A stretch of 64,000 bases of DNA from Pagrus major (taxonomy: Eukaryota > Chordata > Actinopteri > Spariformes > Sparidae). Positions 304-64,000 of this stretch are shown here, piece after piece (position 1 is the first letter of the stretch; every line of letters begins with the position of its first letter). Under the pieces are notes generated by a model. That model was not told the origin of the DNA and did not search any database. It saw only the letters and a list, made by a program, of their open reading frames with translations. The stretch spans positions 20,157,306 through 20,221,305 of the forward strand of contig NC_133215.1 of NCBI RefSeq assembly GCF_040436345.1. Reading direction: 5' to 3'. The position numbers were made by a program, and so were the translations under genes.

Positions 304-1550
304 TTACTCTGCAATGCCCTTTTCAACTTGACTGTAGTGAAACACTTCACACGCTATCTGTTCAGTTTCTTTCTGGGCCCCACACTCCATAAGACATGCA
401 AACCAACCATCTTCAATGTAAGCCAGGTCTGAGTAACCACTGGGTCCACTGTTGATGATCCAGGGTTTGCTCCATGCATTTGGATCCTGTGGGGATTTAT
501 TCAGATACACTCCTAAATTGATCCTGTTGGACAGATCACTTGGGTGGGTGTACAGCAGCCACTTGTTCTGGCTTGAGTCAGCCATGGCACCTTCGCTTGG
601 AGCTGGAAAGGAGACCACACTTCCCTGACAGCCTCCACCTGTTTCAACAAGCTTTCCAGCAGGGAGGGTTTCAAAACCAGCCCCCCTATCAATAGCTTCC
701 ACTCGATAGCCTCCCTTACTACGGGCATTGCAGTAGATGTAGTTGTGGCCCTCATCATCAGACACCTCTGCCATTTCACATTCAAGTGATTCTGTTTCAA
801 GCAGCTTGCTAAAATGCCAACTACTGCCTTCATTATCACGATACAGAGTGAGAGCATGTGGGACAGAGCACTTACATGATATGCAACAGTATGAGGTGGA
901 GCAAGAAGCATATGCATAAGTTGGAATAATCAATCTTCCACTCTCTGTTTGAAGACCATGACCTGGACCAACAGCAAATGTGGCCCATCTTTTGATATCA
1001 GGAAGATGTGACAAATCAGTCACCCCACTCCAAGTCTGGCCACCATCTTTTGTTGTAATGTAGCAGGGGCGAGCCTTGTTACAGCCCCAGAATCTCTGCC
1101 AGCACTCTGAGATGACGCCCTTAACACAGATGAAGAACAGGAAAAGTGTTCTGCTGGTTTTCTCGTACACTGGACAGGGGTTCATCGTACGATGTCCATC
1201 AAGATGTGCCTCCTCCACCACTTTGAGCTCCGACCACTAGAGAGAACATTAATCAGAGATGTGTGAATGAAACAAAGCAGATTCACAAGTAATTTAGCAA
1301 TGAAACAATTGTTTGGGATGATTACCTCAATTGTTCTCACACCAGGGCTCTCCTCCTTCAGCGTTCCTGTTTTCAAAACCAGGTGTTTTGTACTGCTATC
1401 ATGTACAGTACTCCTCTGCTCTGCAAAGGCCATGAAGATCTTTTTGTCACTGTCGTAGAAAAGAGAAGGAATCCTGTACACCCGTTTCCTATCAGATTTA
1501 AAGAGAGTTTGTTTCTGCAGTTGATGACCCTTTAAAGTTATGTCATCCAT
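304..1550 (-). CDS. neu3: Sialidase (neu3-like), tandem copy 1
   Basis: Exo-alpha-sialidase that would remove terminal sialic acid from gangliosides or glycoproteins. Two exons are visible: 1326-1550 (75 codons, phase 0) and 304-1236, separated by an 89-nt GT-AG intron; the product is 385 residues, close to human NEU2 (380). The ATG at 1550 (MDDITLKG) is preferred; an upstream in-frame TTG at 1574 is not a credible eukaryotic start. Family landmarks are the YRIP motif (Arg26), AEQR (Arg46) with Asp51, an Asp box TTKDGGQTW, a degenerate second box (DNEGSSW), LECEMAEV, CNARS, the THPSD..NR segment and the YSDL tyrosine. By alignment with NEU2 these match Arg21, Arg41, Asp46, Glu218, Arg237, Arg304 and Tyr334, so the copy looks active. 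There is no signal peptide. Teleosts are known to have several neu3 genes; which ortholog this is cannot be decided here. Confidence 0.88.
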
Positions 1551-2905
1551 GGTTGGTGTAAAATGATCGTACAATGGTTAAGAAGGAATGAAATGCAGAG
1601 TATACTGCCACAATCATTAGAGATTGCCTGCTGACGGTTCCAGGGTGGTGCCGTTTTTGAATGAGGGAGGAGTCTCTTATCACAGACTAAACATTACTGG
1701 TCACTTCTCAAGAAGTGACATGAAAAACAGGAAAATATGGAAGTTGAATCAAATCCTTTTCTAGGAGGAGCATTAGGGGCACATGTAACAAAGTGTTTGA
1801 ATGCTGATTTTGAACTCAGGAGTCTGCCTTTTTTACTAAGAATTCAGAGATTAAATTTGTAAGAAATTAAAGTTCTTAGAATTCAAATAAATGTTTCACA
1901 TGTGGCACAAATCCTCTTCAGCACTTTTCAGTTGATTAACACAGAAAATAAAGGCCACTTCCTCATTTGAGCAGAACCAAAACAGGTTTGGTTATTTATT
2001 TACCAAGAGGAAGGTCAGCAAAGCAAGTTTAGGTCAGACTGTGATCACATCATCACTGACTGCACCTGTTATTGCCACTTTACATAATTGCAAACATTTT
2101 CCACAATTAGGGTTATACATGCCAAAAAAACACAATGAGTTTATTTTTAACAGATTACTTAGTGATGTTGATGAATGACATCTGGCCTGTGCTAAGTGCC
2201 AGTTTAATAGGAGTCACTGTTGTATGTCCATTTAACAGCAGGAAGTAGTTTTCTGTTTAATCATAAAAGTAAAAAAGTATACCCTTTGAAGGTCATGCAT
2301 GAATACAAGTGTGAAAAATGTATATATTATTCAGAAAAACAATAAAAAGAGCTATTTCAATGCCATTGTCAAAAATCGTGTTTAATTCTTTGAATTATAA
2401 CAAAAAACAAAAACTTGGTGTCAATACAGCATCTTTTGAATTGCACTTTACAGTATTGAATGTTAGTACATATCATACATCATTAATATGGTTGTTACAG
2501 CTGAAATAAAACAAAATCAGTAATTTTAAAGGACAATGTAAGTCATTATAACTTTGTTTGTAAATCATGTCAATCCAATACCTTTATGTTGAGTCGTTAT
2601 AAGTATGATTTCAGAACAATAGTGTCACTTGTAATACACAACAAGCTGCTCTGAAGTCTCATGTAAGGAAAACGAAATTTGTGGTACAGCCACAGAGAAA
2701 GCAAAAACCTTTAAAGGCTCTCTGATCAACTTCACAATGCTTCCCACACTCCATTAGCCTGAGCATATAATCAGATATTTACAAGCTTGATCAGCATCAG
2801 AATCTAAAAGTCAAGTTAATCATTTCAGGTTTTCAGCCCCATACAATGTCTACAAAATGTTAATAAAAATGAAGAGAAGGCTTCACATCAGATAAAAGCA
2901 CTTAC
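1551..2905. other. Spacer between sialidase copies 1 and 2
   Basis: This spacer holds the 5' flank of copy 1 and the 3' flank of copy 2, with no gene. About 1551-2600 is repeated almost base for base at 9024-10060 (5' flank of copy 3), and 2600-2905 is repeated at 1-303 and about 7470-7762. A 20-bp near-palindrome (GTCACTTCT, 2-bp centre, AGAAGTGAC) lies at 1700-1719 and recurs in the other copies. Compared with the flank of copy 2, copies 1 and 3 carry about 175 extra bp (roughly 1740-1912). Open frames here are short and not coding. Confidence 0.7.
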
Positions 2906-4146
2906 TTACTCTGCAATGCCCTTTTCAACTTGACTGTAGTGAAACACTTCACACGCTATCTGCTCAGTTTCTTTCTGCACCCCACACTCCATAAGACATG
3001 CAAACCAACCATCTTCAATGTAAGCCAGGTCTGAGTAACCACTGGGTCCACTGTTGATGATCCAGGGTTTGCTCCATGCATTTGGATCCTGGGGGGATTT
3101 ATTCAGATACACTCCTAAATTGATCCTGTTGGACTGATCACTTGGGTGGGTGTACAGCAGCCACTTGTTCTGGCTTGAGTCAGCCATGGCACCTTCGCTT
3201 AGAGCTGGAAAGGAGACCACACTTCCCTGACAGCCTCCACCTGTTTCAACAAGCTTTTTAGCAGACGGGAGGGTTTTAAAACCAGCCCCCGTATCAATGG
3301 CTTCCACTCGATAGCCTCCCTTACTACGGGCATTGCAGTAGACATGATCATCAGACACCTCTGCCATTTCACATTCAACTGATTTTGTTTCAATCAGCTT
3401 GCTAAAATGCCAACTACTGCCCTTATCGTTACTACACAGAGTGAGAGCATGTGGGACGGCGCGAAAACATGATATGCAACAGTATGAGGTGGAGCGAGAA
3501 GCATATGCATAAGTTGGAATAATCAATTTACCACTCTCTGTTTGAAGACCATGACCTGGACCAACAGCAAATGTGGCCCATCTTTTGATATCAGGAAGAT
3601 GTGACAAATCAGTCACCCCGCTCCAAGTCAGGCCACCATCTTTTGTTGTAATGTAGCAGGGGCGAGCCTCGTTATGGCCCGTGAATCTCTGCCAGCTCTC
3701 TGTGACGCAGTTCGGAACACAGATGAAGAACAGGAAAAGTGTTTTGCTGGTTTTCTCGTACACTGGACAGGGGTTCATCGGACGATATCCATCAAGATGT
3801 GCCTCCTTCACCACTTTGAGCTCCGACCACTAGAGAGAACATTAATCAGAGGTGTGTGAATGAAACAAAGCAGATTCACAAGTAATTTAGCAATGAAACA
3901 ATTGTTTAGGACGATTACCTCAATTGTTCTCACACCAGTGCTCTCCTCCTTCTTCAGCGTTCCTGTTTTCAAAACCAGGTGTTTTGTACTGGCGTCATCT
4001 GTAGTACTCCTCTGCTCTGCAAAGGCCATGAAGATCTTTTTGTCACTGTCGTAGAAAAGAGAAGGAATCCTGTACACCTCGTTCACCTTGGAAAGAAAGA
4101 CAATTCTTTCTTCTTGGATTTTTTGATGTGAGGGTTTGTTGCCCAT
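2906..4146 (-). CDS. neu3: Sialidase (neu3-like), tandem copy 2
   Basis: Second sialidase of the array, with exons 3919-4146 (76 codons) and 2906-3829 and an 89-nt intron; 383 residues. The start ATG at 4146 gives MGNKPSHQ, an N-terminus shared with copy 4 but different from copies 1 and 3. YRIP, AEQR, the following Asp, the Asp box TTKDGGLTW, CNARS, the THPSD..NR stretch and YSDL are all present. Exon 2 has a 12-nt in-frame deletion just before CNARS (DDHVYCNAR against DDEGHNYIYCNAR in copy 1), shared only with copy 3. The loop after LFLFFICV reads PNCVTESWQRFTGH, the most distinctive version in the array. The promoter contains a long inverted repeat (separate entry). Confidence 0.88.
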
Positions 4147-4191
4147 GGTTGCTGTCCAATGCGTATCAGCATATACCGTTTAAGCTTATGA

Positions 4192-4287
4192 GTAAAGACT
4201 CCTCCGTCGTTCACACAGGGCAGCACCAAGCCGTATAAAACAATAAGGCTTGGTGCTGCCCTATGTGAATGACCGAGAAGTCTTTTA
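4192..4287. repeat. Imperfect inverted repeat in the copy 2 promoter
   Basis: Two arms of about 41 bp (4192-4232 and 4247-4287) flank a 14-nt spacer at 4233-4246. The inner 22 bp differ at one base (core GGGCAGCACCAAGCC against GGCTTGGTGCTGCCC). The spacer holds TATAAAA on the plus strand, read as TTTTATA on the gene strand. Copy 4 has only one arm here, next to a plain TTATAAA box, so the structure arose by an inverted duplication 45-100 bp upstream of the ATG. Confidence 0.85.
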
Positions 4288-4479
4288 TTACAGACTCAAC
4301 GTCATTGTTCACTTTTCAAGAAGTGACTTGAAAAAGCAGGAAAATCCCCTTCAGCACTTTTCGGTTGATTGGAAGAAAACCAAAGTCCACTTCCTTTTCA
4401 GCAGTAACACACAAATGACTACGAGCAAACGCCAGGACTGCTACAGGCTCAGTGACCTTTGATGCATGGAGGTTTGGTT

Positions 4480-6300
4480 TCAGTTAATCTTTTATTTCTT
4501 TACTCTCCTACAACGTGACCCTGCATCTGTGCTGCTTTCTCTCTTGGCATCTTTCTCACCATGGACCTCCTGAACTCTTAGCATGAGCTAAAGGATAATT
4601 TCACCCAAGTTACGAAAGATATTTGTATTTGGTGCATGGCCATCAGAGGTGTCGATATATCATATCCATATTTTCACTACATGATTATGGTGGCCGAAAG
4701 AGAACATGATAACGATAATATCTAATATATAGAAGATTTGAAGAGAAAAATGCAGTCAGTCAAATTACTCTTGAACTTCATTCATTGTGTGTTTTGCCAC
4801 TTTTATTGCTGAAGAATTACAAAAAATTTAATAGGTGAATATCAATATTTAATTTTTAAATGTCATGATTACAATAAGTACAGGGATACCGGGACACCCC
4901 CTAGTGGCTATACAAAAAAAAAAAAAAAATTCTGTAGACAGATATCAACAAGTCTACAGCCATGCTGATGCCCTGTGAGGCCAAGAGTTATTGTCGTGTT
5001 TCCATCCCATCCTGTTAACAGGAGACAGACGTTTCCTTCTTCGTCTTAATCAATTTAACAACATTTTACCTGGACTGATAGGTAAACCAACTGTGAGGAG
5101 AATTTTAACGTCATGTTAGCAATCCCCTTCATTTGCTATGAACTGACATCCTGGAAGCACGCTCATTATTTTTTTCCCCAAGAGTTGGATGATGAGATCA
5201 TTACCACTTTCATTCTGCATGAAGTATGGGGCTAAAGCCAGGTTACAGTTAGCTTAGCTTAGCATTAATACTAAATCAGTGCATCAGCTAGCCAATGTTC
5301 AAATATCTACCTACCAACACCACTAAATCTCACTAAATAACACTTTGCCTCACCTGTACACAGCGACAGAAATTTTAAACCACGAGTCATGGTTTTACTG
5401 GGAGTTACATGCTGTAACCATAGACTGTATAAAGATGGACGACGCTCTACCACCTCCTCCCAATGTACAAAAATGAAGCCAAATATCCTGGATACAGGCG
5501 TGGCCATCTTGAACTGGTGATGTCATTTGGAGCCAGAGTCTGCGCAGTACTGATTGGGCGGTCGAGTACCGAGTTCCCGCCCATACACCTGCCCAATTCA
5601 ACTGCAAGCAGGGCTCAGTTGTCAGTCATTATGTCACACCCTCTTTTTCTAGCATCATAACTAATTAAAACCAAACTTATCAGGAAAATGACTATTTGAA
5701 CTTACATCAGCAAGATAAGAGCTACCTAAAATAACAGAAACCATCTTTGTGAAGAATTTATTTGACTTGTACTCTGAGTTTTTATTTTGGCTCATGTCCC
5801 ATCTGCTAACATTTTTGGGGGCGGGACTTATGACCTACACTGCAGACAGCCATCCAGACCAAAATCCATTTTTAAAAATGTATCACTAATTACATTGCAG
5901 ACTTGTGCATTTATTAATTAGTTACCAACTTGAATTGTTGGCAAATGAGAAACCTTTTACCAGCGGCTTTATTAACATTTCCAACTGCAGAATTGAAAGT
6001 TAGAAAGATTAGAGAAAGTTGGGCCAGTTACCTTTCAATGAATTTAATAATGGATTAATATTGGATTAATAACAAGTTTATTAATCCTTCCTAATTAGAG
6101 TTGGTGCTGTATTTCTTTTGAAAACAGGAAGAAGAATTTTTCTGCTCCCTTCCTTTTTGGCAAAACAGCAGCTTCCTGTGAGAGAAAGTAACCGGTGATA
6201 CTGTACAACTATTATATAGTCCCATTAGATTTCTCAAGAACAAGCTTTTATTTCTCAAGCTAAGCAACATTAAGATCCCCCTTGACATACACATCAGATG
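4480..6300. other. Spacer with old interspersed repeats
   Basis: No gene is seen. The segment around 4860-5010 has a short A-run and wording typical of dispersed fish repeats. Near 5230-5270 it contains the TTAGCTTAGCTTAGCAT wording common in teleost repeats. About 5415-5640 (starting CATAGACTGTATAAAGATGG) also resembles a dispersed teleost repeat. Family names and exact ends cannot be assigned by eye. The short open frames at 5307-5660 lie inside this repeat and are not genes. Confidence 0.4.
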
Positions 6301-7000
6301 TATCAATACAATCTCTGCATATAATCATACATTTACATTGTTGGTTTAAAAACTAAGTTAGCATCTTAAAGGCATATTTGTAAAGACCTGTATCATTTTA
6401 GGTGATGAGTCCCATTCAAGGAAAACTTCACACACTATCTGCTCAGTTTTTTTCTGCTCCCCACACTCCACAAGACCATAAGGTCTGAGTAACCACTGGG
6501 TCCACTACTAATTTTCACCTTTCACAGCAGCATTTCTGTACACGAACAAACAAATAATAGTGCAAAAACAATGTTAAGACAGTTCTGATAATCAAAGTTA
6601 AAAATGCGCCCCTTTGAGGACGTGCATGCTTACAAGTGTGCAAAATGGATTCACTCTGCAGAAAACCAATAAAGAAAGCGCTTATAACTCAATTTATTTG
6701 TCAAAAAATCTTGTTTTTCTGTTTACATTTAATAAAAAAAAACATTACATCTGTGCCAGTACAGCATTGCTTGAGTTACACCACATAAGTATGAAATGTT
6801 AAAACAGTATCATAATGAATATGGTTGTTACAGCTGAAATCAAGCTAAAAACAAAATCAATCATATCAATCAATACATGTAAATAATTATACATTTGCAA
6901 ATCCAACACTTTTAATATGTCTAATAGTTGTTAATACGATTTTCAGTAGATTCTCTTATAACATACAACACGTTAGATTAAAGTCCATTCTTCATTGCTC
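6300..7000 (-). pseudogene. Relic of a fifth sialidase unit
   Basis: About 6418-6515 aligns with the 3' end of sialidase exon 2 of the intact copies: the stretch corresponding to HYSQVE..CEVFHY, the cysteine-rich MECG region and the GPSGYSDL region is recognisable but has lost internal bases. About 6604-6900 aligns, with many differences, to the spacer sequence at 2290-2600. The rest of the gene is gone. This is the remnant of an older tandem unit between copies 2 and 3, much more diverged than the others. Confidence 0.7.
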
Positions 7001-7762
7001 GCTCCTGATCTTGGCTGTCTCACCCCAACACTGTAACTTGTTCTCTCCACATGGTGTCAATGCTTTTCACTGTTCTCTAAAGTTAATGAAGTTTACATTA
7101 GCTGATCATGTAGTTGATAAGTTCATGGGAGTAAGAAGTCGGCACAGTTCACTGAGGGAAAACTGACTTTCAGCCCTGAAACACCTGGTTGGAAACACCA
7201 TGGCACTTTGTTTGATCTTTCACTTAATCTTATCTTTTTTACATGAATGAGAGTAAACGCTGATTCAAACACGTTAAAAACTTTAACTCTATACATGAAA
7301 ATAATAAACTTGTATGTAGGCAAGAACAAACATTAGCAAAATATCTCCCACACATACATCATTAATATGGTTGTTACAGCTGATATAAAAACAAAATCAG
7401 TCATTTTCATGGACAGTGTAAGTCATCATAACTTTGTTTCTCAATCATATCAATCCAACACCTTTATATTGAGTAGTTATAAGTATGATTTCAGAACAAT
7501 AGCATCACTTGTAATACACAACAAGCTGCTCTGAAGTCTCATGTAAGGAAAACAAAATTTGTGGTACAGCCACAGAGAAAGCAAAAACCTTTAAAGGCTC
7601 TCTGATCAACTTCACAATGCTTCCCACACTCCATTAGCCTGAGCATATAATCAGATATTTACAAGCTTGATCAGCATCAGAATCTAAAAGTCAAGTTAAT
7701 CATTTCAGGTCTTCAGCCCCATACAATGTCTACAAAATGTTAATAAAAATGAAGAGAAGGCT

Positions 7763-9023
7763 TCACATCAGATAACAGCACTTACTTACTCTGCAAACCT
7801 TTTCAACTTGACTGTAGTGAAACACTTCACACGCTATCTGCTCAGTATATTTCTGGGCCCCACACTCCATAAGACATGCAAACCAACCATCTTCAATGTA
7901 AGCCAGGTCCGAGTAACCACTGGGTCCACTGTTGATGATCCAGGGTTTGCTCCATGCATTTGGATCCTGTGGGGATTTATTCAGATACACTCCTAAATTG
8001 ATCCTGTTGGACTGATCACTTGGGTGGGTGTACAGCAGCCACTTGTTCTGGCTTGAGTCAGCCGTGGCACCTTCGCTTAGAGCTGGAAAGGAGACCACAC
8101 TTCCCTGACAGCCTCCACCTGTTTCAACAAGCTTTTTAGCAGACGGGAGGGTTTTAAAACCAGCCCCCGTATCAATAGCTTCCACTCGATAGCCTCCCTC
8201 ACTACGGGCATTGCAGTAGACATGATCATCAGACACCTCTGCCATTTCACATTCAAGTGATTTTGTTTCAATCAGCTTGCTAAAATGCCAACTACTGCCC
8301 TTATCATTACTACACAGAGCGAGAGCATGTGGGACGGCGCAAAAACATGATATGCAACAGATTGAGGTGAAGGGAGAAGCATATGCATAAGTTGGAATAA
8401 TCAATCTTCCACTCTCTGTTTGAAGACCATGACCTGGACCAACAGCAAATGTGGCCCATCTTTTGATATCAGGAAGATCTGACAAATCAGTCACCCCGCT
8501 CCAAGTCTGGCCACCATCTTCTGTTGTAATGTAGCAGAGACGGGCCTTGTTACAGCCTGAACTTATCTGGTCACTCTCCGAGACGCCGTCCTCAACACAG
8601 ATGAAGAACAGGAAAAGTGTTTTGCTGGTTTTCTCGTACACTGGACAGGGGTTCATCGGACGATGTCCATCAAGATGTGCCTCCTCCACCACTTTGAGCT
8701 CCGACCACTAGAGAGAACATTAACAACAGAGATGTGTGAATGAAACAAAGCAGATTCACAAGTAATTTAGCAATGAAACAATTGTTTGGGATGATTACCT
8801 CAATTGTTCTCACACCAGTGCTCTCCCCCTTCAGCGTTCCTGTTTTCAAAACCAGGTGTTTTGTACTGCTATCATCGACAGTCTCCCTCTGCTCTGCAAA
8901 GGCCATGAAGATCTTTTTGTCACTGTCGTAGAAAAGAGAAGGAATCCTGTACACCCATTCCCTATCAGATTTAAAGAGAGTTCGTTTCTGCGGTTGATGA
9001 CCCTTTAAAGTTATGTCATCCAT
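7763..9023 (-). CDS. neu3: Sialidase (neu3-like), tandem copy 3
   Basis: Third sialidase, with exons 8799-9023 (75 codons, ATG at 9023, MDDITLKG) and 7763-8707 and a 91-nt intron; 389 residues. YRIP, AEQR, the following Asp (ETVDD), the Asp box TTEDGGQTW, CNARS, THPSD..NR and YSDL are present. A 2-bp deletion near 7795 relative to the other copies shifts the last codons, replacing the usual GIAE end by VCRVSKCCYLM; the catalytic propeller should be unaffected. Exon 1 and about 1 kb of 5' flank match copy 1, while the DDHVYCNAR deletion in exon 2 matches copy 2. Its pocket loop reads EDGVSESDQISSGC. An in-frame TTG at 9047 is not a likely start. Confidence 0.87.
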
Positions 9024-10438
9024 GGTTGGTGTAAAATGATCGTACAATGGTTAAGAAAGAATGAAATGCAGAGTATACTGCTGCAATCATTAGAGATTGC
9101 CTGCTGACGGTTCCAGGGTGGTGCAGTTTTTGAATGAGGGAGGAGTCTCTTATCACAGACTAAACATTATTGGTCACTTCTCAGGAAGTGACATGAAAAA
9201 CAGGAAAATATGGAAGTTGACTCAAATCCTTTTCTAGGAGGAGCATTAGGGGCACATGTAACAAAGTGTTTGAATGCTGATTTTGAACTCAGGAGTCTGC
9301 CTTTTTTACTAAGAATTCAGAGATTAAATTTGTAAGAAATTAAAGTTCTTAGAATTCAAATAAATGTTTCACATGTGGCACAAATCCTCTTCAGCACTTT
9401 TCAGTTGATTAACACAGAAAATAAAAGTCCACTTCCTCATTTAAGCAGAACCAAAACAGGTTTGGTTATTTATTTACCAAGAGGAAGGTCAGCAAAGCAA
9501 GTTTAGGTCAGACTGTGATCACATCATTACTGACTGCACCTGTTATTGCCACTTTACATAATTGCAAACATTTTCCACAATTAGGGTTATACATGCCGAA
9601 AAAACACAATGAGTTTATTTTTAACAGATTACTTAGTGATGTTGATGAATGACATCTGGCCTGTGCTAAGTGCCAGTTTAATAGGAGTCACTGTTGTATG
9701 TCCATTTAACAGCAGGAAGTAGTTTTCTGTTTAATCATAAAAGTAAAAAAGTATACCCTTTGAAGGTCATGCATGAATACAAGTGTGAAAAATGTATATA
9801 TTATTCAGAAAAACAATAAAAAGAGCTATTTCAATGCCATTGTCAAAAATCGTGTTTAATTCTTTGAATTATAACAAAAAACAAAAACTTGGTGTCAATA
9901 CAGCATCTTTTGAATTGCACTTTACAGTATTGAATGTTAGTACATATCATACATCATTAATATGGTTGTTACAGCTGAAATAAACAAAATCAGTAATTTT
10001 AAAGGACAATGTAAGTCATTATAACTTTGTTTGTAAATCATGTCAATCCAATACCTTTATATTAAGTAGTTTACCATTTAATTTCAGCACAATAGTGTCA
10101 CTTGTAATACACAACAGGCTACTTTGAAGTCTCAAGTATGGAAAACAACAGGTCATTTTGTGGTATAGCCTCAGTGAAAGATGGACAATTAAACACCTCT
10201 GATTTTTACTCTCTAGTGTCAGCTTGACTTCATTGTAGCAAAAAACCTTAAAGAGCCGATCAGCTTCACAATGCCTCCCACACTTCATTAGCATATCATC
10301 ATACATACATACAGCGTCAGCATCTTGAAGTCAGACATATTTGTAGATCTCTTTATCATTCAAGGGCTTCAGCCCCATACAAGGAATCCAAAAAATATAA
10401 AAGGCTTCACACCTGATAAAGGCATTGATTTTATTCAT
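9024..10438. other. Spacer between sialidase copies 3 and 4
   Basis: About 9024-10060 is a near-identical duplicate of 1551-2600. From about 10060 to 10438 the sequence is related to, but clearly diverged from, the 3' flanks of copies 1-3, so copy 4 keeps an older 3' flank. No gene is seen. Confidence 0.7.
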
Positions 10439-11691
10439 TTACTCCTCAATACTCTTCTTGACTTGACTGTAGTGAAACACTTCATACGCTATCTGCTCAG
10501 TATATTTCTGCACCCCGCACTCCATAAGACATGCAAACCAACCATCTTCAATGTAAGCCAGGTCTGAGTAACCACTGGGTCCACTGTTGATGATCCAGGG
10601 TTTGCTCCATGCATTTGGATCCTGTGGGGATTTATTCAGATACACTCCTAAATTGATCCTGTTGGACTGATCACTTGGGTGGGTGTACAGCAGCCACTTG
10701 TTCTGGCTTGAGTCAGCCGTGGCACCTTCGCTTAGAGCTGGAAAGGAGACCACACTTCCCTGACAGCCTCCACCTGTTTCAACAAGCTTTCCAGCAGACG
10801 GGAGGGTTTTAAAACCAGCCCCCGTATCAATAGCTTCCACTCGATAGCCTCCCTCACTACGGGCATTGCAGTAGATGTAGTTGTGGCCTGCATTATCAGA
10901 CACCTCTGCCATTTCACATTCAACTGATTTTGTTTCAAGCATCCTGCCAAATAGCCAACTACTGCCTTTATCATCACTATACAGAGCAAGGCCATATGGG
11001 ATGGCGCAATAACATGATATGCAACAGTATGAGGTGGAGCAAGAAGCATATGCATAAGTTGGAATAATCAATCTTCCACTCTCTGTTTGAAGACCATGAC
11101 CTGGACCAACAGCAAATGTGGCCCATTCATTGATATCAGGAAGATCTGACAAATCAGTCACCCCACTCCAAGTCTGGCCACCATCTTTTGTTGTAATGTA
11201 GCAGAGACGGGCCTCGTTACGGCCCCAGAATCTCTGCCAGCACTCTGAGACGACGCCCTTAACACAGATGAAGAACAGGAAAAGTGTTTTGCTGGTTTTC
11301 TCGTACACTGGACAGGGGTTCATCGGACGGTATCCATCAAGATGTGCCTCCTTCACCACTTTGAGCTCCGACCACTAGAGAGAACATTAATCAGAGATGT
11401 GTGAATGAAACAAAGCAGATTCACAAGTAATTTAGCAATGAAACAATTGTTTGGGATGATTACCTCAATTGTTCTCACACCAGTGCTCTCCTCCTTCTTC
11501 AGCGTTCCTGTTTTCAAAACCAGGTGTTTTGTACTGGCGTCATCTGTAGTACTCCTCTGCTCTGCAAAGGCCATGAAGATCTTTCTGTCTCTGTCGTAGA
11601 AAAGAGAAGGAATCCTGTACACCTCGTTCACCTTGGAAAGAAAGACAGTTCTTTCTTCTTGGATTTTTTGATGTGAGGGTTTGTTACCCAT
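10439..11691 (-). CDS. neu3: Sialidase (neu3-like), tandem copy 4
   Basis: Most upstream sialidase of the array, with exons 11464-11691 (76 codons, ATG at 11691, MGNKPSHQ) and 10439-11374 and an 89-nt intron; 387 residues. All catalytic landmarks seen in copy 1 are present. The CNARS region has the long form (AGHNYIYCNAR) as in copy 1, the N-terminus matches copy 2, and the C-terminus (KKSIEE) and 3' flank are its own. A TATA box stands 54-60 nt upstream of the ATG, which suggests a very short 5' leader if used. Variable loop residues are KGVVSECWQRFWGR. Confidence 0.88.
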
Positions 11692-46392: not shown

Positions 46393-49300
46393 TCATTCAG
46401 TTTTCAATACTTTCTCGCCTTGTTTTACCAGTGAATCCATGCCGTCATTCACTTTTCTCTCCACATTTTTTGCAGCCTCATTCGTCTTTTCTAATGTGTT
46501 TTTCTTGCTGAATTTTCGTCTGCCCACCTCAGATACTGCAGATCCAGCTGCTGCTCCGACAGCTCCGCCGAGCACACCCCCCAAAAACACGCCAAGCACC
46601 AGACCCAGCAATGCTCCCCCTATGACTACCTTTGGCACCTGTTTAGCAGTGGTCCCAATTTTCTCCCACACTGAGCTCTCAGCCACCATTTTGGCCCCTG
46701 CTTTGGCCCCAGAGCCCACCTTCCCCCACACCGGACTCTGTGCCACCTTCTTTGCACCGGAACTAATTCCAGCTCCAACACGCATAGAATTTTCAGCCAT
46801 CAGTTTAGCTCCAGTTTTGGCCCCAGATCCGACTTTTCCCCACATAGGACTCTTTGCCAAATTCTTTGCCCCGGTTCCAATCCCAGCTCCGACACGCATG
46901 GAACCATCTGCCATCAGTTTGGCCCCTGATTTTGCCCCTGAACCAACTTTTCCCCACATGGGATTTGCTGCTGCTGCCTTTGCTCCAGATCCCACCCATG
47001 CAGAACCATCCACCACTACCTTGGGAACTCTATCTCCTACTAGTTTGGACACATGTCCGGCACTAGTTCCAACCTTCCCCCACACAGAACTGTCAGCCAC
47101 CATCTTCTGAACATTTTGTGCTCCGCTGCCGACCTTTCCCCACATTGGACTACTTTTCACCTTCTTTGCTCCCTCGCTGACCCACACAGAGCTATCTGCC
47201 AACAGCTTGGGTAAATTCTTTGCACCAGACTCCATTTTCTCCCTAATGGAACTGAGAAGTGAAGGGTTAATGGTGGAAAGCGTAACAGGAGGAAGGCTCT
47301 CGATGTTCATGGTTCTTACACTCATCTCTGCCTCATCCCTTGTTTTCTCAATCTCATCCTCTCTCACTTCCTCTTCTGCCTCAACCACAGGCTGCATGTA
47401 GGAATAAAGTGCCCGCCTTTCAGAACTGAGCTGTCTAACGTCTCCTTGTCTTTCTTCCTCTGGTTTTTTCCCCTTTCTCTCCCTTGCTATCTCCACTTGT
47501 CTCTGTCTCACTCTGTTCTCTGCCTCCTGAAAAGCAGGACAAGAGTAACACTGTCCTCCAGCCTCCTTCACTGTCTGCTCCACCTTCTCTAGCAGCTCGA
47601 CCAAATTCTTACTCTTCCTCCAACCTCCTGCCGTCTCCATCACATGAAACCTGTCCCCGCATTTCTCCACCAGCTTTAACAAATCCCCCCGCTGACCAGC
47701 GATGTAAGCCTCCACGCTGTTGTCTCCAGCCTTCCCACTTTCCCTCAGTCGATCTGCGTAAGTAAAGAGGACCATCGCGTGTCTTTGGACTGACTCCGGG
47801 CCAAAAACGGATTCAAGAGCCCTGAGAGCCTGCAGCTCGGTCTTTGCTGGCTGGTCTAAAGGGACGCACAGCAGGAAGGCGTGGGGACCGGGACTGGCCA
47901 AAGCAACACAGGAGGAGATCTGAGCTCGCACCTCATTTGGAGTTTGCTCTGAATTGAACCAGTCTGGGGTATCCACCAACGCCACCTGCAGGTGAGAGAG
48001 GAGAGAAGAAGAGTTGAGTCATGGGAAATTAGCCAGATTGTATTGTTTCATGCCATGAAACAGAGGAGCGTGTCAAAGATTAGATGTTTAGATGTTTTGG
48101 CAATGGCACATGGTGCAAAAGGAAAATTCAACTACGCAAGCAAACAAAATCTTCATAACTTACCTGTCTTCCTTCAACCAGAGCTTTCTTTTTCTCACAC
48201 TCCTGAGTGATCGCTGTGAGGCTTTCTGGATGTGACTCAAACTCCTCCCGCCCCAATATGTAGTTGGCAGCTGCGCTCTTTCCTGCTCCAGATCGCCCAA
48301 GCATCACCAGACGTAGCTCCTGAGACGATGAGGAGGAGGAAGAGGAGGATAAAGGGAATGAGTAGGCGGAGGAGGGAGATGAGGGAGCTGGGGCAAAGGT
48401 CGGCGATGAGGGGGGAGAGCCGAAGACAGGTGAATCAGAAGAGGAGGTCGGAGACATGTCAGGGGATCTGTCTTCAAAACTGTTGATTCTGTGGTGCACT
48501 GAAAAAAAAAAATCAGGGGAAATCTGGGATTTAATATGGAAAATTGAAAATGAAAATTATTTTTAAACATCATAGAACTGAACTTTAAGGGACATAGCAC
48601 TAGATAGTCAGGTCCTGTGACTTACAAGTAGTGACCAATTTTGGCGATGATTTAACCTCAGACATTTGTGAGAGTAGAGCTCCATCTATGGAGGAAAAAC
48701 AGAAAATATGAGTCTGGTTCATTTTCAGCTCCTATTTATTTTTCTTCTTTTTTTGCATAGAAATGTAGAACATTAGGTAAAATAATTGGATCCAGAACTT
48801 TTTTCTAATAGCGATTACCTGCATTTAGTCTGAAACTGGGCGTCCTCTTCACCTGTGTGTCATCATGCGACTCTGAATATGACTGTCGCTCTGGTGCTGG
48901 AGTTGAATGAAGCCCGTTAGATGCTTGGCTTACACCCACACTTCCGTCCATCACATCCCTCTCTTCTCTTCTCCTCCTATACAAGGTGGTGCTGTACTCC
49001 TCTCCACTATCAATACTCCTCTGTGTTTCTGTGTTTGGGATGTGTGTTGAAGCTGTCCTCTCTGTTCTCTCCTCCTTTTGAGCTCTGTAACTTTCCATAA
49101 GTTCTTGCTTTCTGTCTTTCACTCGTTTGTCCAGGTCTCTCTCCTGAGCTGATTTCTTGTTGTATACCCCGTTTTTCTTCACCATGTTGTCCACCTGTTA
49201 ATGAATAGATAAACAAATGATGCATTAAGGAAATGTCACTTAACTCAAATTTACAATTACAGAGTCACTTTTTATAACAAGGGAAGACATTTCTGAAGGA

Positions 49301-62330: not shown

Positions 62331-64000
62331 TGAGGCATTTATCGCGGAGTAACTTGGTTGACGCGCCACTCGCTATTGTTCGTTTGTTGTGTTGAATAAG
62401 AGTCCAGATGAGAGTCCCTTGATTGAATAATTGTGAATAGTTTTATTCCAATTCCAAAGTATATAACAAATTCTCCTTAGCGCCATAGCGGTCAAAAACC
62501 ATATGCCCTTCCGGGTCAAAACACCTGCCAACAATAGTGACGTTGCTTCCTATATACACCTGTGCCCCTAAGTGACAGCACAGCGACACCACACCCACAC
62601 AGTGTGAACTACAAAGACACCCATACAACATATTTGGCTCCTATACACCGGCCCCTAATTGTTAATGGCAAATAGACATAACAATTCAAATATAACAAAA
62701 AACAAAACAAAAAACAAAACAGAAAATGAGCCAAATGTTATGACAATCCAATTTACAATTCAGCATAGACACATTTATATTTCATGTACCAAACAGAGTT
62801 TTGTCACAGGCCTTTCAATAATGTTGGTCTTTGTCTGCAACCTCACAGAACGCACAAGTCCTTGTTTGTCTGGAAAAACCTCCAGAACCTTGCCAAGTGG
62901 CCAGGAACCACGTGGAGCTGAAGAATCCATTATAACCACAATATCTCCAGCTGTCAAACTTCTTTTCTTCTTGTTCCACTTTTGCCTCTCTTGGAGCAAG
63001 GGCAGGTACTCCTGTATCCATCTCTTCCAGAAAAGATCTGAGAGGTACTGTACTTGTCTCCAGCGCCTTTTCACATACAGGTCATGAGGTTCGAACACTC
63101 CAGGTGGCAATGCTGGTTTACCCTTTAAGAGAAGTATGTGGTTCGGCGTGAGAGGTTCCAGGTCGTTGATATCGTCTGAAAGCTTGGTGATTGGACGATC
63201 ATTCAAAATGGCCTCCACTTCACAGAACACTGTATGAAGTCCATCATCATCCAGCTTCTGCTGATGTAGAACAGAACTGAGAACTCTTCTTACCAGGCGG
63301 ATCATCCTTTCCCATACACCACCATGGTGTGAGCCTGCTGGTGGATTGAAACTCCAATGGATTCCAACCTGTGAGAGAACTCCTCGAATCCTGTCCTGAT
63401 TCAAAGCAGTTAGAGCCTGCTTCAGTCCTCTGTCTGCCCCAACGAAGTTAGTGCCATTGTCTGACGTGAGGTGTGCCACCTGTCCTCTTCTGCTGATAAA
63501 ACGCCGCAGAGCATTGATACATGCATCTGTGTCCAGTGAATTAGCCACTTCAAGGTGTACGGCCCTGCTTGCCATGCAAGTGAATATCACTCCGTACCGC
63601 TTGCAGGTTGACCTTCCTCTCCTAACTTCAACTGGTCCAAAGTAATCTACTCCTGTGTTGGTAAAAGGTGGTAGATCAGGAAGGATTCTCATCTTCGGCA
63701 GATCCGCCATTTTTTGTTCCACGGCTCTTCCATTGTAACGTCTACAAAAGATGCATTCCCCAATGATCTTCCTGACAGCTGAGTTGGCCTTTGTGATCCA
63801 AAACTTCTTCCTAACCTTTGACAATGTGTGAGTCCGTCCACTATGGCCCAGACTCTGATGTACATGCCTAAGAATGAGCATAGAGACGTGTTGATCTTTG
63901 GAGAGAATGAGTGGATGCTTAGCTTCCTCCGGCATGGCTCCTCTACTCAATCTTCCTCCGACTCTCAAGTGTCCATTCTCCAAAACTGGATCCAGTCTGT
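62331..64000 (-). mobile_element. BEL/Pao LTR retrotransposon (fossil copy, partly in window)
   Basis: Inserted antisense in the hmox1 intron. The 3' LTR is 62331-62647 (317 bp, TG..CA ends) and is preceded by a purine-rich tract next to 62648. The C-terminal part of pol occupies 62775-63983 and continues off the window. It shows an integrase zinc-binding region, the DDE integrase core and the C-terminal domain typical of BEL/Pao. No break is evident in the visible part, so the copy looks relatively young. The other LTR and the rest of the element are outside, so completeness and age cannot be judged. Confidence 0.85.

Follow-up and report, generated by a model that had tools for sequence, protein, structure and literature searches.

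Four tandem sialidase genes of probable NEU3 type with divergent lid loops on a mosaic, near-constant scaffold

The window analyzed here, a 64,000-nucleotide stretch of contig NC_133215.1 (positions 20,157,306 to 20,221,305), carries four intact two-exon sialidase genes in tandem, all on the minus strand, which we call copies A to D in rising coordinate order. In copy A, exon 1 (1326..1550) begins with MDDITLKGHQ and holds the equivalents of the catalytic residues Arg21 and Asp46, and exon 2 (304..1236) is an open reading frame that ends with VEKGIAE and a stop codon and matches human NEU2 (E 1e-59) and Pfam BNR_2 (E 2.9e-27). The other three second exons are likewise open reading frames: copy B has a first exon of another type, beginning with MGNKPSHQ (3919..4146), followed by exon 2 at 2906..3829; copy C has an exon 1 of the MDDITLKGHQ type (8799..9023) and exon 2 at 7763..8707; and copy D has an exon 1 of the MGNKPSHQ type (11464..11691), exon 2 at 10439..11374 and a 3' flank of its own. 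In all four genes exon 1 stops ahead of a GT and an AG precedes exon 2, and all four spliced frames are open, encoding 383-389 amino acids (aa) without a stop. A frame change at 7763-7800 places the C-terminal residues of copy C in a different frame from those of A and B, giving it a tail unlike theirs. The larger intergenic gap, between B and C, contains on the same strand the relic of a fifth copy (6422..6506), found by blastn and tblastn, which consists of the 3' part of exon 2 only and falls into two blocks with a gap inside (blastn identity to A-D of 85-91% over 6422-6476 and 96-100% over 6481-6506).

The spliced copy B matched the human NEU2 chains 9nqx_A (E 8.1e-71) and 1snt (E 2.8e-68), the exon 2 proteins of all four copies matched Pfam BNR_2, and the copies are 41-43% identical to NEU2. 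The six catalytic residues, R21, R237, R304, D46, Y334 and E218, are present in every copy, which places the proteins among the GH33-type enzymes of the NEU2/3/4 clade, and judged from the sequence they are predicted to be six-bladed, NEU2-like enzymes. Structure prediction for exon 2, made with the four-row alignment only, returned a mean pLDDT of 31.1. The copies do not resemble the NEU2 subfamily itself: of the NEU2-specific residues in Table 3 of Giacopuzzi et al., one of the 15 testable positions is present in all four copies, two of the 17 listed positions falling beyond the alignment. By this exclusion of NEU2, together with reports of tandem NEU3 genes in teleosts, the array would be assigned to the NEU3 type, and its host is a vertebrate, most likely a teleost. 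Among viral contigs, 45 pattern matches included no relative.

The original prediction held that the copies differ mainly in two loops, the loop after LFLFFICV (segment 1) and the stretch after PTYAYAS (segment 2). We counted codons over alignment columns 30-388, dropping the N-terminus and the C-terminal tail, and the gapped columns were also dropped from the Fisher test. Non-synonymously variable codons make up 27/46 in the two segments and 40/307 elsewhere (odds ratio 9.5, Fisher p=7e-11). Windows of 17 codons reach at most 12 variable columns (permutation p=0.0014), and the densest of them fall within the two segments. The concentration of changes is thus real, and the coordinates, frames and conserved Glu of the prediction were confirmed. 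The word "mainly" was too strong, since 46 of the 73 variable columns in the counted range lie outside the two segments and the N-terminus, the blade-4 turn and Loop 2 vary as well. The most divergent part of the protein is the N-terminus, where the starts of A/C and B/D are unlike and make 25 of the initial 29 columns of the alignment variable.

In the numbering of the NEU2 crevice loops by Giacopuzzi et al. 2012, Loop 3 spans aa 107-122 and carries E111, and Loop 4 spans aa 183-190; their account places both loops near the glycerol side, where they perhaps modulate the substrate range, and puts the Asp-boxes on the face opposite the crevice (PMC3431349). Segment 1 contains this Loop 3, the lid. 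The sequences after LFLFFICV in the four copies are KGVISECWQRFWG, PNCVTESWQRFTG, EDGVSESDQISSG and KGVVSECWQRFWG; as had been predicted, all four retain the Glu that aligns with NEU2 Glu111 while its neighbors vary. For A, B, C and D in turn, the lid has a charge of +2, -1, -3 and +1 and contains 3, 2, 0 and 3 aromatic residues. On the DNA, the Loop 3 island lies on the minus strand at 1072..1122 in A, 3665-3715 in B, 8543-8593 in C and 11210-11260 in D. Segment 2, on the same strand at 826..912 in A and, by the coordinates of the original prediction, near 3421-3504 in B, 8299-8382 in C and 10966-11046 in D, covers Loop 4, the next strand and the start of Asp-box 3, so its assignment to the pocket holds for the Loop 4 part and fails for about half of it, the strand and Asp-box 3 being past the pocket loop.

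Counted by loop, variable columns amount to 4/8 in Loop 2 (around Asp46), 11/16 in Loop 3, 6/14 in Loop 4 with its insert, 3/32 in the aligned part of Loops 5-9 and 45/270 in everything outside the pocket loops; Loop 1 falls outside the counted range. Loops 3 and 4 together are enriched for changes (17/30 versus 45/270 outside the pocket loops, p=4e-6), and the other pocket loops as a group show no enrichment (7/40, p=0.82). Beyond Loop 4, the changes continue through NEU2 positions 191-198 (5/8), Asp-box 3 (199-206, 4/8), which is changed to RDNEGSSW in copy A, and 207-217 (7/11), and are followed by a stretch of 0/9. A turn in blade 4 (NEU2 227-232), which probably lies on the far face, carries a 4-codon indel and is variable in 7/7 columns, and only 8/120 columns vary in NEU2 233-357. 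Separately, Loop 4 (850-920 and equivalents) contains 5, 3, 4 and 5 Cys per 16 residues in A, B, C and D; such a Cys-rich loop is unusual in a cytosolic enzyme and could reflect acylation or disulfides.

Among the 16 ligand-site positions that we checked, N86 and Q270 being included on our own assumption that they belong to the site, 13 are invariant among the copies and 12 are identical to NEU2 in all of them (R21, R41, D46, M85, N86, E111, Y179, Y181, E218, R237, R304 and Y334). At position 270 every copy has Gly in place of the Gln of NEU2, and the three variable positions are K44 (V/T), Q112 (C/S) and L217 (L/V). Giacopuzzi et al. give M85, E111, Y179, Y181 and L217 as contacts of 2-deoxy-2,3-didehydro-N-acetylneuraminic acid (DANA) (PMC3431349). 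In docked NEU2 models, as they are described, Q112 and the K44 backbone contact N-acetylglucosamine (GlcNAc) and galactose (Gal) (PMC4164519); Y359, also named in these models, is beyond the alignment and outside the 16 positions. Since K44 and Q112 vary and are modeled against Gal and GlcNAc, the variation points to the sugars past sialic acid and not to the form of the sialic acid, and we rank a preference for sialic-acid forms second because the sialic-acid contacts hardly vary. The proposed diversification of substrate preference therefore keeps its pocket-side enrichment, sialic-acid forms are less likely as its axis given the 13/16 invariant positions, and the suggested link to pathogen glycans found no support.

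The gene body contains 37 sites at which two copies differ from the other two, and these support conflicting groupings: A and D against B and C at 16, A and C against B and D at 12, and A and B against C and D at 9. They form 16 runs where 25.0 are expected on shuffling (p=0.002), and the non-coding divergence is low, 0-4.5% between copies in the intron and 2.3% (A-B) and 1.3% (A-C) in the 3' flank. Conflicting groupings in runs combined with low non-coding divergence are the pattern of gene conversion; this mosaic signal fits crossing-over between copies as well, and an assembly fault, in which copies were mis-joined, may be its source. Within the Loop 3 island, the differences per 51 nucleotides (nt) are 14 for AB, 17 for AC, 20 for BC, 12 for BD and 17 for CD, and 4 for AD, and 51-nt flanks set 6 nt off the island show 0-2 differences, the 6 skipped bases on its 3' side containing two more variable codons. 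Two codons in Loop 3 of copy C have three differences each. Because an island of 12-20/51 lies between flanks of 0-2/51, point mutation since the last homogenization is insufficient to explain it, and a block skipped or moved by conversion is sufficient.

Synonymous changes in these loops, which the original prediction had named as the observation that would speak against it, are concentrated there too, if somewhat less strongly, and to that extent the objection largely holds. Synonymously variable columns amount to 6/46 in the two segments versus 13/307 elsewhere (p=0.026), and codon pairs encoding the same residue differ in 13/166 cases in the segments versus 38/1639 elsewhere; counted by column in the strict loops, the synonymous excess was not significant (3/31 versus 16/322, p=0.23). 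A maximum-likelihood (ML) codon model with separate rates, fitted on each of three fixed trees, an assumption that the mosaic structure violates, gave synonymous rate ratios of 3.7-4.1 in the two segments (p 0.0004-0.0016) and of 2.5-3.2 in the strict loops (p 0.016-0.067). The corresponding omega (the non-synonymous to synonymous rate ratio, dN/dS) was 1.5-1.7 in the segments (p 0.10-0.26 against 1) and 1.95-2.65 in the strict loops (p 0.017-0.10). We give this fit beside the Nei-Gojobori estimates (NG86), which put omega at 0.85 over all codons (0.61-1.25) and at 1.01 within the segments (0.54-2.28), because NG86 ignores transition bias (kappa about 3.5).

These numbers bear directly on the explanation that the original prediction implied, namely point mutations in the pocket loops under positive selection for sialic-acid forms or pathogen glycans. 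The loops do map to the pocket side, their non-synonymous rate is 5.2-6.8 times that of the rest, and the strict-loop omega just given leans the same way, making some selection in the strict loops possible. However, positive selection should lift omega above 1 without a rise at synonymous sites, and here the synonymous sites are raised and an omega above 1 is marginal and confined to the strict loops. The ratio of non-synonymous to synonymous changes does not differ significantly between the segments and the rest (p=0.60; strict loops p=0.38), changes also cluster on the far face, nearly all sialic-acid contacts are invariant, and mosaic trees inflate such tests. We consequently regard point selection of this kind as unlikely.

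Relaxed constraint, in which extra copies drift and the surface loops, being least constrained, come to differ most, seems to us an equally doubtful account. It agrees with an omega near 1 across the gene, with the altered C-terminal frame of C, the degraded Asp-box 3 of A and the presence of a relic copy, and with Giacopuzzi et al. 2012, according to whom low pressure leaves connecting loops variable where they contain no essential residue (PMC3431349). Yet none of about 115 substitutions has produced a stop, against 4.7 expected from changes blind to the reading frame (P=0.010, independence assumed), and the catalytic set is intact in all four copies. The lack of stops together with this catalytic set and the ligand-site identity indicates that the four genes are probably in use, even though an omega near 1 everywhere, the shifted frame in C and the altered Asp-box 3 in A count against use. 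Furthermore, relaxed constraint alone would leave no block of 25-40% divergence between flanks of 0-4%, and it is insufficient for the divergent block because the non-coding intron differs by just 0-4.5%. Neutral import, in which conversion with an unseen paralogue of greater divergence would have placed foreign loop blocks in the copies without selection, fits the sharp island borders, the multi-base codon changes in C and the raised synonymous rate, but we consider it very improbable, since at least three lid versions at the same place are disfavored by chance and the donor is not seen in the window.

On balance, we lean towards a NEU3-type array that has been homogenized by gene conversion and in which loop islands escaped or were exchanged, probably being retained by selection. 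Conversion among the copies would keep most of the gene alike, and short islands, most of all the lid in Loop 3, would hold older or imported differences that conversion did not erase or that it transferred in one piece; a single lid version appears to be common to A and D despite their differing N-termini and 3' flanks. Since synonymous and non-synonymous changes are both raised in the islands, the age or import of a block accounts for their density, and we propose that the lids were not homogenized because selection keeps them different. Three points weigh against this explanation. First, omega outside the loops is about 1 (ML 0.99-1.14; NG86 0.77), as relaxed constraint would also give. Second, the pocket geometry is taken from homology to NEU2 at 41-43% identity. 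Third, a Loop 3 donor sought in the window was found to be absent for the divergent C version, only the four known copies reaching 31/51.

The two first-exon starts add a further component to the mosaic. MGNKPSHQ in B and D and MDDITLKGHQ in A and C each come with their own upstream DNA, in which A and B differ at 192/384 sites and A and C at 7/397, and the switch from start-specific to common sequence lies inside exon 1. The MGNKPSHQ start presumably fits the N-myristoylation consensus of PROSITE, which would put the acyl group on Gly2. In zebrafish, Neu3.1 and Neu3.3 are described as membrane-associated and Neu3.2 as soluble (PMC10487903), and a division of this kind, in which B and D are predicted to be membrane proteins and A and C soluble ones, would thus not be without parallel. 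All four copies would hydrolyze sialosides, the changes in the lid and Loops 2 and 4 would tune the sugars or lipids accepted past sialic acid, and the N-termini would set the location, membrane-anchored for B and D and soluble for A and C. Carried further, and only as a tentative suggestion, the array may be a modular repertoire in which conversion shuffles cassettes among the copies (a promoter with an anchored or soluble N-terminus, the Glu111 lid, and a block from Loop 4 to blade 4), recombining catalytic core, location and aglycone preference, and selection keeps the lids different against homogenization. Should the difference between the lids be actively maintained, the array would offer a ready-made series of natural loop variants on a near-constant scaffold, with which the aglycone choice of vertebrate NEU enzymes would become directly testable. 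It also serves as a caution that gene conversion can mislead dN/dS estimates from young tandem copies.

Elsewhere in the window, Pfam identified a bHLH protein, AIG1 GTPases and a heme oxygenase, which we take to resemble fish lyl1, gimap and hmox1. One AIG1/GIMAP-type GTPase, at 46396-48018, has a C-terminal repeat tail (DNA period 114 at 46679-46963). A retroelement fragment, presumably Pao/BEL-like and carrying an integrase core domain as well as DUF5641, adjoins the heme oxygenase gene at 62778-63998.

Tandem fish NEU3-type genes with fast loops are already known, and what is of interest here is a near-constant scaffold that bears mosaic lids. In one open-access library we found no description of a mosaic-lid sialidase array, including under fish neu3 paralogs with gene conversion, and no paper whose title concerns positive selection in sialidase evolution. 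Human NEU2 (1snt, 9nqx) has the Arg triad, Asp46, Glu218, Tyr334, Glu111, Tyr179 and Tyr181 in common with the copies, whereas their Loop 4 is Cys-rich and longer by six aligned residues. A 2011 study by Giacopuzzi et al. reportedly deals with a loop that faces away from the crevice. Their 2012 work regards Loops 3 and 4 as likely modulators of the substrate range, and the same loops vary here; the comparison it presents is between subfamilies and largely one of loop length, whereas the copies here are near-identical neighbors (PMC3431349). The zebrafish genes neu3.1-neu3.5 on chromosome 21 are reported as a five-gene tandem cluster of NEU3 type with membrane-bound beside soluble members (PMC10487903, PMC3431349), as predicted for this array, but most of exon 2 is much more similar among the present copies, which share sequence in a mosaic fashion. 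A similar process is described for teleost lws opsin paralogues under gene conversion, in which the synonymous divergence (Ks) drops close to zero over some stretches of coding sequence and old divergence persists in others (PMC11291592); the opsins are unrelated proteins, and the likeness is one of process only.

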